Positions 48,496 to 54,109 of a DNA stretch of 64,000 bases are shown in pieces. The notes beneath the pieces were generated by a model. The model worked only from the letters and a program-made list of their open reading frames with translations. It ran no database searches and was not told the DNA's origin. Source of the stretch: Ferroplasma acidarmanus Fer1 (GTDB taxonomy: Archaea > Thermoplasmatota > Thermoplasmata > Thermoplasmatales > Thermoplasmataceae); assembly GCF_000152265.2 (NCBI RefSeq), contig NC_021592.1, forward strand, positions 434,001-498,000, written 5' to 3'. The stretch's first letter is position 1; every line of letters starts with the position of its first letter. The translations under genes and the position numbers were made by a program.

Positions 48496-48816
48496 CTATA
48501 AAAAAGGTTGCAAATGCGTTGATATAGTACAAAAGTTATTGGGAAGACAGACACAATGCATGCATGATTCAAAGTTTGTCATCGTTCCTAACGTTGCCTC
48601 TTTAGGGATATCAGTGTTCCCTTTGTACGCATCACTGTCTACGTACAATTGATCTATGCCTTCCTCAAATACTCGACGCAATGCTATGTTGAACGAAGCT
48701 GTGACATCAGCATGAATAACGTGCCCCCGGTCAGAGCGCCTGAATGATTTACAGTACAGGTTGACTGTGAGTCCATACCTCGATTCCTTTGGAGAGTTCA
48801 GATTACCATAATTCAC
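48496..48816 (-). pseudogene. C-terminal fragment of a TnpB (IS605 OrfB) protein
   Basis: The frame contains the third RuvC motif as GHVIHADVTASFNIALR, where D is the catalytic residue, following a shortened zinc-finger region (LYCKSFRRSDRG). The rest of a TnpB (RuvC I, II and most of the guide-binding part) is absent, so this is a decayed remnant. The sequence differs from the full TnpB at 51.5-52.7 kb, where the equivalent reads GEADYIASLNI, so it came from another element. Confidence 0.7.
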
Positions 48817-48870
48817 TGTTTGTGTTTTCCTGATAATTAAGTTCGTATTGATAACTTGGAAATCTGTAGC

Positions 48871-49479
48871 TCATTTAATATACCACAATTCTTCCAGGTT
48901 ATTTTGATATTTTTTGTCTTTTTTATTTTCTAATGAAACATATCTGTTTATAGGAGGTTGCCCATGTGCAACGCTCATACACATATTGTCTATTTCCTTT
49001 GGCGAATCTATGAATTCCCTAACCCATCCCTGTAAAAATAAACTCGGTGGATCAAAGTGGCTTTCCTTGTTATATGAATATTCCTGTTCAACCAAAAATA
49101 ATTGATGCAATATACCTATTGTCATTAAATTGTTTAGATATAAATTAAAATTTTCTTCCTTTAAGCTATACAATGCTTCTTCCGGGTCTTCTCCATAATA
49201 TATAGAATCGAAAGCAGACAGTAACTTATTCCTTAAATCAGGCCTGCTTTTTATCCTTAAATTTAAATCTATCAATATTCTCAGGTGGTTCGGCCTGAAA
49301 TCCATATTATTTTCATGTAACCATATCTGAAAATTTTTTGAAGGGTCATAATTGACGAAGTTTTTAGATAATTTAGACGGCCTTATGATATATATTTCAG
49401 CACTATCATATGAATGTATACTTTTTTTATTATCATATCCTAACTCTTTCACAATATTGAATAATTTATTTTTATCCAT
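48871..49479 (-). CDS. Conserved-looking protein next to DNA methyltransferase, candidate restriction component
   Basis: A 202-residue soluble protein. Notable stretches are FQIWLHENNMDFRPNHLRILID near residue 50, LRIKSRPDLRNKLL, and FLQGWVREFIDSPKEIDNM near 150. I believe proteins of this type recur beside DNA methyltransferase genes in archaea, but I cannot verify it. No clear PD-(D/E)xK, HNH or GIY-YIG motif is visible. It is divergent from a ribbon-helix-helix gene and an amino-methyltransferase gene (about 85 bases between starts), the usual layout of a type II system with its own regulator. A restriction endonuclease role is an inference from position. Confidence 0.6.
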   Translation of the reverse strand: MDKNKLFNIVKELGYDNKKSIHSYDSAEIYIIRPSKLSKNFVNYDPSKNFQIWLHENNMDFRPNHLRILIDLNLRIKSRPDLRNKLLSAFDSIYYGEDPEEALYSLKEENFNLYLNNLMTIGILHQLFLVEQEYSYNKESHFDPPSLFLQGWVREFIDSPKEIDNMCMSVAHGQPPINRYVSLENKKDKKYQNNLEELWYIK

Positions 49480-49563
49480 AAAAATGCTTATTTAATATTC
49501 AATAAATAACTTCATTTATAATACATATAAATAAATATCAATATGTATTTTTGCTTATATACT

Positions 49564-49731
49564 ATGATTAGAAAGAAGAGAGTGACGCTAACAATAGATA
49601 TAAGTACATACGAAAAATTCAAAGAAGTTTGCAAAAATGAAGATATAAAAATGTCAACGAAAATCAATACATTAATAACCAAATGGCTGGCGGTGCAGGA
49701 AAATGAAAATGAAAAGGATAACTTTAGATGA
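49564..49731 (+). CDS. Ribbon-helix-helix protein
   Basis: From ATG 49564 the product is 55 residues with strand RVTLTIDI, helix TYEKFKEVCKNE and second helix STKINTLITKWLA, the ribbon-helix-helix layout of CopG/Arc-type DNA-binding proteins. A longer start at 49543 would add seven hydrophobic residues and is less likely. It overlaps the methyltransferase start by 29 bases, so it probably acts as an autoregulator of the modification gene and its divergent partner. Confidence 0.7.
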   Translation: MIRKKRVTLTIDISTYEKFKEVCKNEDIKMSTKINTLITKWLAVQENENEKDNFR

Positions 49732-50563
49732 TTATAACAATTATAAGAAATTAAATGATATTGTAACAATAGAGGATAATAAAATAAAGATCGGTGAAAA
49801 AAATATTATAGAAACTTTAGAGCCTGAAAAATTCAATTTGGAAATAGATAATGTCTGGAGCTTCCCTGAAAGAGGAAAATGGTGCACACATTATCTAAAT
49901 GCAAAATATAGGGGCAACTACGCACCCCAGCTCCCCAGAAATATAATTTTAAGATATTCTAAAGAGAATGATTTGATTTTAGACCCTTTTTCAGGTTCAG
50001 GGACAACATTAATCGAAGCAAAATTATTGAAAAGGCATGGAATAGGGATGGATATAAATTTAGGTTCTGCAATGATTACAATGGATAGGCTAAATTTTAA
50101 TAATTCTGAGAATAATTTAATTGAACCGGAGATATTCAACGGCGATGCCAGAAATTTAAATGAAATAGAAGATGAAAGTATTGATTTAATAATGACACAC
50201 CCTCCATATGCTAATATTATAAAATATTCAAAAGATAACATTATAAAAGATGATTTGTCCTCTATAGAATCACTGGAGGAATATTATAAGAAATTCAAAA
50301 AGGTAATTAAAGAGATGCATCGTACTCTTAAAAAAGGAAAATACTGTGCAATATTAATAGGCGATACAAGAAAAAAAGGATATCAAATTCCAATATCATT
50401 TACAATCATGCAATTATTCCTTAAAGAGGGATTTGTCCTGAAAGAGGATATAATAAAAGTACAGCATAATACTAAAACCCGGCATTACTGGGCATCGTTA
50501 TCCATAAAAAACAATTTCATGCTTCTGGCATACGAACACTTATTTGTTTTTAAAAAACTGTAA
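49703..50563 (+). CDS. DNA amino-methyltransferase (N4/N6 MTase fold)
   Basis: A 286-residue DNA methylase. Motif I is DPFSGSGTTLIEAKLL near residue 94, and motif IV is MTHPPYAN near 171, an HPPY variant of the (S/T/D)PPY active site used by N4-cytosine and N6-adenine enzymes. Motif I precedes IV. The WSFPERG...THY segment before it is seen in PF01555-type methylases. Recognition site unknown. Overlap with the ribbon-helix-helix gene makes them one message. The next gene, on the other strand, is a second methyltransferase of a different class, 3 bases away tail to tail. Confidence 0.85.
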   Translation: MKMKRITLDDYNNYKKLNDIVTIEDNKIKIGEKNIIETLEPEKFNLEIDNVWSFPERGKWCTHYLNAKYRGNYAPQLPRNIILRYSKENDLILDPFSGSGTTLIEAKLLKRHGIGMDINLGSAMITMDRLNFNNSENNLIEPEIFNGDARNLNEIEDESIDLIMTHPPYANIIKYSKDNIIKDDLSSIESLEEYYKKFKKVIKEMHRTLKKGKYCAILIGDTRKKGYQIPISFTIMQLFLKEGFVLKEDIIKVQHNTKTRHYWASLSIKNNFMLLAYEHLFVFKKL

Positions 50564-50566
50564 AAA

Positions 50567-51415
50567 TTAATAATTTGTTACTATTATTTCTTTTAATCCT
50601 GTTCTTTTACTTGCATCACTGTTGATAAACCGGTTTACATTTACAATATTAATATTAAATTCATTATATAATTCTAACATTTTTTCATTATAGGAATTGC
50701 TTAACATGACATTTACATTTTTATCTGCTAATCCTTTAAAAACTTTGAATAATCTTTTCTGCTCATCGTAGTCAAAGCCATTTTTTGTATAACCTGTAAA
50801 ATATGATGTTTTATTTAGCGGTTGATAAGGTGGGTCAAAATAAACAAAATCATTCTCTTTTGCTTCTTTAACTACGGTTTCAAAATCAGAATTAAATATG
50901 TTGATATTTTTTAACATTATACTAAAATTATAAATATTATTATAATCAAACATGTTAACATTTTTGTATTTTCCAAAAGGAACGTTAAATTTATTATTGG
51001 AATTAACTCTCCATAAGCCATTATAAGCGTGCTTATTAAAATATAAAAATAGTACAGCTCTTCTTATTTTATAATTATTATCCCCGATAATATCATTGTA
51101 TTCATCCCTTAAATTGTAATATTCAATATTATTCGGCAAATTATCCTTCTTTTCTTCTTCCAAAAATTCATTTAAATTATATTTTATTACATTATAAAAA
51201 TTTATCAACTCCCCATTTAAATCTGATATTGCTCCATATTTTATTAAATTATTATTGTATAAATGGATTAAAAATGATGCACCGCCTGCAAATGGTTCAT
51301 AATAATAATTGAACTTTTCTGGTATTCTTTTGTATAATTCATTTATTATCTGCCTTTTGCCTCCTGCCCATTTTAGCAAAGGTTTTACACTTCCATATCC
51401 ATTGATATTAATCAT
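50567..51415 (-). CDS. DNA adenine methyltransferase, Dam/D12 class
   Basis: A 282-residue N6-adenine methylase of the D12 (Dam/DpnM) class: LLKWAGGKRQIINEL at the N-terminus, motif I YYEPFAGGASFLIHL, and motif IV DFVYFDPPYQPLNKTSYF near residue 190. Dam-class enzymes often methylate GATC, but the site here is unknown. Tail to tail with the HPPY methylase, so both strands or both bases of a site may be protected by the pair. Very A+T-rich like the rest of this block. Confidence 0.88.
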   Translation of the reverse strand: MININGYGSVKPLLKWAGGKRQIINELYKRIPEKFNYYYEPFAGGASFLIHLYNNNLIKYGAISDLNGELINFYNVIKYNLNEFLEEEKKDNLPNNIEYYNLRDEYNDIIGDNNYKIRRAVLFLYFNKHAYNGLWRVNSNNKFNVPFGKYKNVNMFDYNNIYNFSIMLKNINIFNSDFETVVKEAKENDFVYFDPPYQPLNKTSYFTGYTKNGFDYDEQKRLFKVFKGLADKNVNVMLSNSYNEKMLELYNEFNINIVNVNRFINSDASKRTGLKEIIVTNY

Positions 51416-51547
51416 TTATTAATATATATTATAAAAGTAATAAACGTTTTTGTTTTAAAAGTTATATCCGCGGATTCTGTAAATATATATCCTCTATTAT
51501 GATAGCTTCATTAATTTAATTTTAACCCATAAGTCAACTACCCACAG

Positions 51548-52663
51548 CTAAAGCAGTGAGCTTGCAACTGGGCTGTCACAATGGACAAAAAAATCACCCG
51601 CTACAATAGGCTGGTTGGCAACAGCCCTGTTCCTGATATTGAGAGAAGCAATATAATCTGCTTCTCCCTTTAATCCACAGGAAATGCATTTAAATATAGA
51701 CCTCTCAGGCCTGTTCTTTTTTGATATAGTATGGCAATTGGGACATTCTCTGCTTGTGTTGTGTGGGTCTATAACTATTACGGGAATGCCTGCTTCTTTT
51801 GCCTTATACTCTATAAACAGCCTGAGCTGATAGAAAGCCCATGAATTATGGATATATTTATTTCCTTTCTTAACAGTTTCCCTCATTCTAATGCCAGTAA
51901 GGTCTTCAATGGCAATAGCGGAAGAGGTGCCTTTGGCTTTCTTTACAATATTTTTAGATATTATATGGTTGGTATTTGTAGCAAATCTATGCTCTTTTCC
52001 TGAAAGCTTCTTAAGATGCCTTTCTGCTGATCTGGTATTAACAGATTGCAATCTGGAGCGTAGATCTAAATTGTGTTCTCTGACTCCTTTTATTTCATTA
52101 CCTGAGTAGTACTTACCGGTAGAATCTACGGAGATATTTGCAATGCCCATATCTACCCCTATAACATTCTTAGGTTCAATAACTGGTTGTTCCGGTACAT
52201 CAACGCTGACCATTAAATAAAAGAGCTTATGTCTCCTTACAAGGTCACATTGGCCCCTTACCATATCAAAGGGTATATCAGCATATTTTCCAATGGTTAT
52301 AGGTATTCTTATTCTTCCCTTAATAGTGTTAAGGCTTACTTCATCCATGCCTTTAAAACTCATTATTCTCTGGTCATATACAATTGAACCGTATTCCCGG
52401 AACTCATGGAATACTAATCTATCAGTCATATAGGTGTCAACAACCTTTGCAATAACTCTTATGGTTAACTGTGCTGATAACCCGAATTTATTTCTTATAT
52501 CATAATATACTAATTTCTGGAGGGATATTTTATTGTATATTTTATTATCCCATGCTATTCTGGATACAAAATTACATGCTTCATTGAATTTTTTGAATGT
52601 GTTGAGGAGCATATCCTTCTGATTATCGTCTGGAAGCAACTTGATTTGAAGGGTTTTGAGCAC
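51548..52663 (-). CDS. tnpB: TnpB, RNA-guided nuclease of an IS605-type element
   Basis: The protein of about 371 residues has all TnpB landmarks: RuvC-I IGVDMGIANIS near residue 172, RuvC-II AIEDLTGI near 255, zinc finger CPNC...CISC, and RuvC-III GEADYIASLNIRN with its aspartate. I use a GTG start at 52663, since VLKTLQIKLLPDD is the usual N-terminus and a TATA-like TTTATATA lies about 25-30 bases upstream; a TTG at 52702 would read through the hairpin. The reading frame is intact, so it may be an active guide-directed nuclease. Its guide RNA would cover the gene's end and the right end near 51540. Confidence 0.9.
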   Translation of the reverse strand: MLKTLQIKLLPDDNQKDMLLNTFKKFNEACNFVSRIAWDNKIYNKISLQKLVYYDIRNKFGLSAQLTIRVIAKVVDTYMTDRLVFHEFREYGSIVYDQRIMSFKGMDEVSLNTIKGRIRIPITIGKYADIPFDMVRGQCDLVRRHKLFYLMVSVDVPEQPVIEPKNVIGVDMGIANISVDSTGKYYSGNEIKGVREHNLDLRSRLQSVNTRSAERHLKKLSGKEHRFATNTNHIISKNIVKKAKGTSSAIAIEDLTGIRMRETVKKGNKYIHNSWAFYQLRLFIEYKAKEAGIPVIVIDPHNTSRECPNCHTISKKNRPERSIFKCISCGLKGEADYIASLNIRNRAVANQPIVAGDFFVHCDSPVASSLL

Positions 52664-52696
52664 ATTATACAAATATAAACTCAATATATAAAATTG

Positions 52697-52738
52697 TCGC
52701 AATTCCTCCTATGACTAAAGTCATAGGCTTCCTTGCGA
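52697..52738. repeat. Imperfect hairpin at the tnpB element left end
   Basis: A 42-base inverted repeat: outer stem of 6 and inner stem of 9 pairs around a 2-base centre, split by a 5-6 base internal loop. Subterminal hairpins of this type are bound by TnpA of IS605 elements and mark the upstream boundary of the element. Confidence 0.7.
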
Positions 52739-52773
52739 CGGGATCGTGAACAGCTACTAAAAATTGCCATACT

Positions 52774-53145
52774 CTATAAGCGATTTTTGTTAAAGTAATT
52801 AAGCCTAAGAAATAATGATAATTCATTTTTAATATCGCACATATATTTATCTTCAAGAATTCCAATAAAAGCAATAAATCTTTTAACGTCAATAGATCTA
52901 ATTTAGAACATTAATGCAATTGAATCCATTGTCAATCGATTATTTGTGGATTTTTTTATTTTCATTGTATATGGAAACCTAGCTGCATCTATCTGAGATG
53001 TAAAGGGTATAACGGCAACAAGTCCTGTCTCTACATGTTTAGAAATCGCTACAGCAGGTCTGGTTTTATTCTGTTCATGGCCGGTAACATCGTTCAGGTT
53101 AACAAAATACAATGAGCCGCTGTTGATTTTATTGATATCAATCAA
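52774..53145 (-). pseudogene. MazF/PemK-like toxin with an in-frame TAA
   Basis: The first 80 codons give a MazF-like beta barrel: GSLYFVNLNDVTGHEQNKTRPAV split at its typical turn, VAVIPFTSQ, and DSIALMF. A TAA at 52903-52905 ends it where the family normally has a glutamine (VFQIRSID). The same frame then continues IRSIDVKRFIAFIGILED and on to a stop at 52774, giving the missing C-terminal helix. The change CAA to TAA is the simplest explanation. The protein made would lack the last strand and helix and is probably inactive. The partner gene upstream overlaps by 8 bases. Confidence 0.75.
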
Positions 53146-53650
53146 TATTATCCCATTCCATCATTTCACTTTTGAGCTCATCTGTCAAAAATTCATCCTT
53201 AAACAATAATTCTTTCGCTTTGTTTTGTCCATTTATTATATCCATATCAGATAAATGTGGCTTTATCTCTTTCATTTTCTTTTCTACAAGTTCTACATCT
53301 TCATATGTTAAATTTAGAAGCATAATGGTACTTGCAGATTCCATCTGGATAATATTAGTATCAAATATATTGATAAATTTATCCAAGATAATTTTTTCCC
53401 TTTCAGGTATTATATAGCCAGAATTATTAAAATTATGGTTATCATTATTAATATCATAATAATCTTTTGCAAGGGAGCTCGAATAAGGCCTGTGTTTCCA
53501 TAAATGAAAATTATAATTTAATTCCATTCCCATGGTTTTAAGTATAAATGCTATTTTTTGGATTTGAAATCGTTCCTCGAAACTATTTATATTGAATTTA
53601 ATGCCCAGATAATTAAAATATGCTATTAACTTCTTTATATCCTTCGACAT
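53138..53650 (-). CDS. Panacea/YwgA-like protein, probable antitoxin
   Basis: A 170-residue protein with RFQIQKIAFILKTMGMELNY near residue 27 and HRPYSSSLAKDYY near 52, resembling the R-xxLQK...GPYSxxL pattern of Panacea (DUF4065) and YwgA-like proteins as I recall it. Panacea proteins serve as antitoxins for many unrelated toxins. Its last 8 bases overlap the start of the MazF-like toxin frame, so the two form a toxin-antitoxin operon. The C-terminal half is helical and acidic, fitting toxin binding. The domain match is from memory and moderate. Confidence 0.65.
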   Translation of the reverse strand: MSKDIKKLIAYFNYLGIKFNINSFEERFQIQKIAFILKTMGMELNYNFHLWKHRPYSSSLAKDYYDINNDNHNFNNSGYIIPEREKIILDKFINIFDTNIIQMESASTIMLLNLTYEDVELVEKKMKEIKPHLSDMDIINGQNKAKELLFKDEFLTDELKSEMMEWDNID

Positions 53651-54109
53651 AATAATGCTATATCATTCCCCATGATTTAAATTTACAAATCAAGAGTATA
53701 TCTATATGGCATTTTCATGAAATGTTAAAGATTACCTTTTATTCATTTATTTCCGGGATTTTTGATCATTTCAGTTGGGTACCTGATTTTTATGTAAAAT
53801 CGTTCCTCTCCCATTGCTATAACTACGTTTGATTATGCTCCTTGAATTGATAGAGAATCATTATATGAAGTAAAAATAGTTAATGAATTATTAGACGCAA
53901 ATTGAAATTTCCCGGGAACCATATTTATTTCCAGTAAAATCGGCTTTAAATTGAGGATTATAGCACAACCGCGGAATGTTGAGGATAAATCTACAGTGAT
54001 AACATACCACTGCATTATCAATTATTTTTATGATGAAAACATTAATTGAATTTCATGAAATTATACTGTTAAAAGGAATTCTTTAAATGGTTGCTAGGTA
54101 TTTGTTATT
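53651..54109. other. Intergenic region at the right edge of the island
   Basis: About 460 bases between the Panacea-like gene and the NifX-like gene. Apart from the possible broken frame at 53743-54021 I see no gene, repeat or att-like copy of a tRNA end. Confidence 0.4.
53743..54021 (-). pseudogene. Possible small gene interrupted by a TAA
   Basis: A 62-codon frame ends at a TAA (53833-53835), but the same frame goes on for 29 codons with protein-like sequence (NVVIAMGEERFYIKIRYPTE) to a stop at 53743. The composite of about 92 residues resembles no family I can name. It could be a nonsense-broken gene like others in this window or a chance frame. Confidence 0.3.

Follow-up and report, generated by a model that had tools for sequence, protein, structure and literature searches.

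Type II restriction-modification (R-M) systems of the DpnII/MboI kind combine the methylases DpnM and DpnA with the endonuclease R.DpnII, which cleaves GATC when it is unmethylated (PMC4081073). For the Thermoplasmatales, REBASE lists an average of 5 Type II methylase genes per genome but 0 genes for Type II endonucleases (PMC10609329), an imbalance that is as expected if endonucleases go unrecognised. The cassette described here resembles the DpnII/MboI systems in that its D12 methylase is closest to DpnM and that it has both a second methylase and a slot for an endonuclease; three methylase classes are common to both kinds of cassette. However, the slot is occupied by a protein of 202 residues, named here U202, whose sequence relation to DpnII is not detectable. 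U202 cassettes also differ in that they mostly have a methylase named here M1, not DpnA, as their second methylase, and in that they carry a ribbon-helix-helix (RHH) or winged-HTH regulator. Sequence comparisons point to an accessory Type II R-M cassette of the DpnII/MboI kind where U202, a non-homologous putative GATC endonuclease, has probably replaced DpnII.

Organization of the locus

The window, which is the whole stretch of 64,000 nucleotides analysed here, belongs to the genome of an acidophilic archaeon, 1.935 Mb in one contig, and contains the following features.

48511-51437, no strand: accessory cassette of 2,927 bp, with a GC content of 28.6% versus 38.5% in its flanks; missing from a second genome of the same species (G092)
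48496-48816, minus strand: TnpB/OrfB remnant at the left cassette edge, with a weak Cas12f1-like_TNB match
48871-49479, minus strand: U202, 202 aa, a family without description and a candidate GATC restriction endonuclease
49480-49542: A+T-rich intergenic sequence of 63 bp that separates U202 from the divergent regulator gene
49543-49731, plus strand: small RHH regulator, 62 aa, with weak RHH_9, ParG and BrnA matches
49703-50563, plus strand: M1, N6/N4 DNA methylase with an HPPY motif IV, 286 aa (PF01555)
50567-51415, minus strand: D12 methylase of the Dam family, 282 aa (TIGR00571)

The regulator and M1 genes overlap by 29 bp, and D12 lies tail to tail with M1 at a distance of 3 bp. The intergenic sequence is presumably a promoter/operator shared by U202 and the regulator. 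A preliminary description had assigned a four-gene layout to 48871-51415, with the gene of the 202-residue protein divergent from an RHH gene that overlaps an HPPY methylase; all of these open reading frames are present at the places given, and their coordinates agree. The convergent D12-class methylase of that description is likewise borne out, since the gene is on the strand opposite to M1 and its product matches both MethyltransfD12 (2.3e-55) and TIGR00571 dam (1.4e-78). The match of M1 to N6_N4_Mtase (PF01555) is 4.6e-31.

U202 defines a sequence family of its own

U202 is a real gene: its reading frame is intact and conserved across 14 aligned homologues, which are 30-72% identical to the protein of the window and have 18 invariant columns. 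The homologues of G613 and G618 are intact open reading frames of 184 and 181 aa with a shorter C terminus. Eleven invariant residues are polar (K36, H65, R67, D71, D98, Q126, E131, Q132, R154, E162 and D164) and, judged by their conservation, are candidates for catalysis and binding. A (D/E)XK or CXXC pattern is absent from the invariant columns, in agreement with the preliminary description, which had seen no obvious nuclease motif in the protein.

Homology searches returned zero matches for U202 in Pfam and NCBIfam. The profile search that had been proposed for it was run with up to 15 diverse family members as well as with the single sequence, and gave no credible match in PADLOC or the PDB; the full alignment has no match in the PDB at all. 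As a positive control, the same libraries recognise copies of DpnII (one by Pfam, at locus L110, and five by PADLOC). PF04556 (DpnII) matches neither U202 nor its relatives, and no Pfam or PADLOC profile for HNH, GIY-YIG, PLD or half-pipe nucleases matches U202; HNH motifs are too variable for visual inspection to dismiss them. Three candidate relationships were rejected. A single-sequence PDB match to SelB (0.002) disappeared with the full alignment, and a match to PADLOC PDC-S47 spans 20 residues in one of the 15 members; both are judged to be due to chance. A profile comparison of U202 as a diverged DpnII yielded only a 14-residue match with 3.6% probability.

AlphaFold2 models computed with five sequences have pLDDT values of 51 and 46, too poor for a fold call. 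In these low-confidence models the N-terminal part is beta-rich, and together with the alignment they place many of the invariant residues in a probably helical part. The literature searched describes no such family, although U202 may carry a putative-endonuclease label in REBASE.

Distribution and gene neighbourhood of U202

U202 is patchily distributed. It occurs in 8 of 61 genomes among relatives, in 6 of 300 within the class and in 5 of 156 genomes from the phylum of the Aenigmarchaeota loci; a phylum search added two genomes, one of them with a fragment at a contig end, and the copies in G327 and G331 were reached through the M1 search described below. Searches of phages, plasmids and viral contigs detected no U202 relatives. 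Neither its sequence, nor its presence in 8 of 61 genomes, nor its absence within the same species fits a housekeeping family, a possibility that the preliminary description had held against its own reading.

A DNA methylase adjoins U202 in all 16 archaeal genomes with readable flanks, in both Thermoplasmatota and Aenigmarchaeota. This answers the co-occurrence survey suggested beforehand, and U202 is thus not a protein that is widespread without methylases. The four-gene layout of the window is kept in three genomes of the same genus (G002, G005 and G008). Four others (G057, G059, G327 and G331) combine U202, M1 and D12 with a winged-HTH gene at the RHH position, the G059 cassette lying on two contigs with ends that overlap within M1. 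U202, a winged-HTH gene at the RHH place and M1 are present in G510; in Aenigmarchaeota G341-343 the genes for U202, the RHH protein and M1 are colinear, and D12 was not found in these three genomes; in G613 and G618, likewise Aenigmarchaeota, U202 is convergent with M1. In G024 and G030 a beta-class methylase (DPPY, HPTQKP) stands beside U202 instead of M1 and D12, and a D12 gene is present elsewhere in the genome. The U202 loci that were opened contain no other adjacent endonuclease gene except an HNH-like fragment (L016).

U202 and DpnII are exchanged beside the same methylases

The clade of M1, defined by at least 50% identity, was searched for among 101 genomes of relatives and is present in nine. 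U202 lies alongside M1 in eight of these and DpnII in the ninth, G048. Here (L110) M1 is 50% identical to that of the window and the endonuclease gene is again immediately adjacent. Unlike U202, the 306-aa gene product is a DpnII endonuclease (PF04556, 3.5e-62; PADLOC REase_II, 2.5e-48), its gene is colinear with M1 and overlaps the M1 end, and D12 was not found in that genome. Further DpnII cassettes, reached by a DpnII search, contain M1-clade and D12 methylases in G087 and G312, and a beta methylase and D12 in G025. The G312 copy of DpnII may be broken, as it is split across two open reading frames. A plasmid search with M1 led to a Fusobacterium vincentii record in which D12 and DpnII occur with M1, and an Mrr-like gene (Mrr_cat nuclease, L154:4160-4978, 2.3e-21) separates DpnII from the M1-clade methylase. 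None of the seven DpnII genomes of the class search is among the genomes where U202 was found, and PF04556 was not found in the host genome.

In a maximum-likelihood tree, the M1 proteins paired with U202 and those paired with DpnII interleave. G059 (U202) is sister to G087 and G312 (DpnII) with support of 100/100, G048 (DpnII) groups with G057, G327 and G331 (U202) with 99/99, and the supported branches force at least three changes of partner. Moreover, the beta methylase of the U202 cassettes in G024 and G030 is 59% identical to that of the DpnII cassette in G025. The same methylases therefore accept U202 or DpnII as partner, which is what one would predict of two endonucleases that share a site.

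Some M1-clade methylases have an N-terminal helix-hairpin-helix-like extension (L156:3529-4611, L159:5252-6349, L017/L113), which occurs with both DpnII and U202 partners. A relative of M1 is also found in most Thermoplasmata genomes examined (for example L089-L109). These widespread M1-like paralogues are about 31-39% identical to M1 over the catalytic part. They are orphans that form a separate clade (100/100), and may represent an orphan methylase that persists because of a housekeeping or epigenetic function.

Predicted target and regulation

The D12 methylase is closest to DpnM (2dpm, 2.3e-59, 204 bits), followed by E. coli Dam. It retains the segments KW.GGK, YNGL.R and NVP.G.Y, in which the known base contacts of Dam lie. 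Since R.DpnII cuts GATC, D12 is closest to DpnM and the contact segments are kept, GATC is the best-supported candidate for the target of the U202 cassette. Avoidance of the site was rejected as evidence. GATC occurs at 0.67 of expectation both in the host and in the same-species genome, which has neither U202 nor any D12, and at 1.06 in G024; with depletion equal when the cassette is missing and absent in G024, site avoidance is uninformative. Other sites are depleted as strongly as GATC or more so: CTAG occurs at 0.44 of expectation in the host sample (L022-L041) and at 0.35 in G092, and GGCC at 0.69 in the same host sample.

The matches of the regulator to RHH_9, ParG and BrnA are weak and below curated cut-offs; its orthologue at L009 matches BrnA_antitoxin at 1e-4. 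Classical R-M controller proteins are HTH activators or repressors, and RHH regulators act as repressors in toxin-antitoxin loci (PMC3874152). By this analogy, the simpler guess is that the RHH protein is a repressor that would control U202.

Possible functions of U202

The partner exchange, the 59% identity of the beta methylases and the DpnM-like D12 are the reasons to regard U202 as a non-homologous replacement of DpnII. In such a cassette, D12 and M1 would methylate the GATC sites of the host, and U202 would cut GATC in incoming DNA when unmethylated; the RHH protein, whose gene stands between those of U202 and M1, would probably restrain U202 until methylation is established. The support is by association throughout, and from it we infer cleavage, the GATC target and the regulation. 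The methylase make-up of U202 cassettes varies, three Aenigmarchaeota genomes having U202 and M1 without a D12 being found, and the missing nuclease motif and missing homology to known nucleases count against a nuclease. The preliminary description of an R-M locus with an unrecognised restriction partner is nevertheless largely upheld by the constant methylase adjacency and by the presence of DpnII in sister cassettes. It had left a choice between a nuclease and a non-nuclease effector; the nuclease is favoured because DpnII occupies the place of U202 in those cassettes, and the effector is disfavoured.

Compatible with the replacement of DpnII, and a sub-case of it, is that U202 is an extremely diverged PD-(D/E)XK or HNH endonuclease, novel at the level of the sequence family only, and the balance tips slightly towards this. 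These two classes hold most Type II enzymes and their diverged members often evade profiles (PMC4081073), and the beta-rich N-terminal part of the low-confidence models is consistent with such an origin. Against it stand the searches with 15 diverse members, which gave no profile match in Pfam, PADLOC or the PDB, and the absence of an invariant (D/E)XK or CXXC pattern. It appears doubtful, if conceivable, that U202 is a Type II endonuclease whose fold or catalytic site falls outside the PD-(D/E)XK, HNH, GIY-YIG, PLD and half-pipe classes, with GATC cleavage invented independently and common to Thermoplasmatota and Aenigmarchaeota.

U202 could also be the cassette's endonuclease but cut some other short site, one that M1 or the beta methylase would protect; D12 would then be a passenger or supply a second specificity. 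A few changes can shift the specificity of a DNA methylase, D12 is missing from the U202 cassettes of G024, G030 and the Aenigmarchaeota, and the PDB entry that the beta methylase matches best is the GANTC enzyme CcrM, with DpnA behind it. Nonetheless, both the M1-clade and the beta methylases adjoin DpnII, whose known target is GATC, and D12 is DpnM/Dam-like, which makes a different site improbable. Still harder to sustain is a role for U202 other than that of a nuclease, be it as an effector, for example a toxin triggered by loss of methylation, or in regulating or assisting the methylases, in a locus outside classical R-M. The lack of a nuclease motif or homology, the many invariant residues in a probably helical part and the RHH regulator, a toxin-antitoxin-like feature (PMC3874152), would suit such a role, but U202 stands in for DpnII next to the same methylases, the change of methylase partner type fits a shared target better than protein-protein help, and no opened U202 cassette contains another intact endonuclease.

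As a replacement for DpnII, U202 would be a small and directly testable answer to part of the endonuclease gap of the Thermoplasmatales. If it cuts, it represents a restriction enzyme family without known sequence relatives and with a predicted target, for which the DpnII-bearing sister cassettes are natural controls, and a clear case of one methylase set exchanging two unrelated endonucleases.

Accessory elements and a second D12 methylase

The match to G092, a genome of the same species, runs along the left flank as far as window position 48510-48513 and picks up again at 51437-51438, so the cassette is missing as a unit. The cassette is accessory, as a genome of the same species is without the whole of this low-GC segment; the state of G092 may equally reflect a loss there or a gain in the host. 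The stretch of the TnpB/OrfB remnant is repeated elsewhere in G092. To the right of the cassette, a second accessory stretch (window 51464-54027) is also missing from G092 and contains three features.

51548-52702: full TnpB/OrfB gene
52903-53145: PemK/MazF-like toxin gene
53138-53650: 170-aa gene with weak DarG similarity (PADLOC, 1.3e-5)

The host genome has a second D12 methylase (G000:C1:1401181-1402502; L161:3682-5003), 52% identical to the first. It is directly followed by a gene for a 138-aa PD-(D/E)XK protein that matches PF20472 PDDEXK_11 (3.8e-16) and has no PADLOC match. This pair is a candidate for a further Type II cassette whose nuclease is small, and a similar pair of D12 and PD-(D/E)XK genes is present in G003 (L164:1943-3207).
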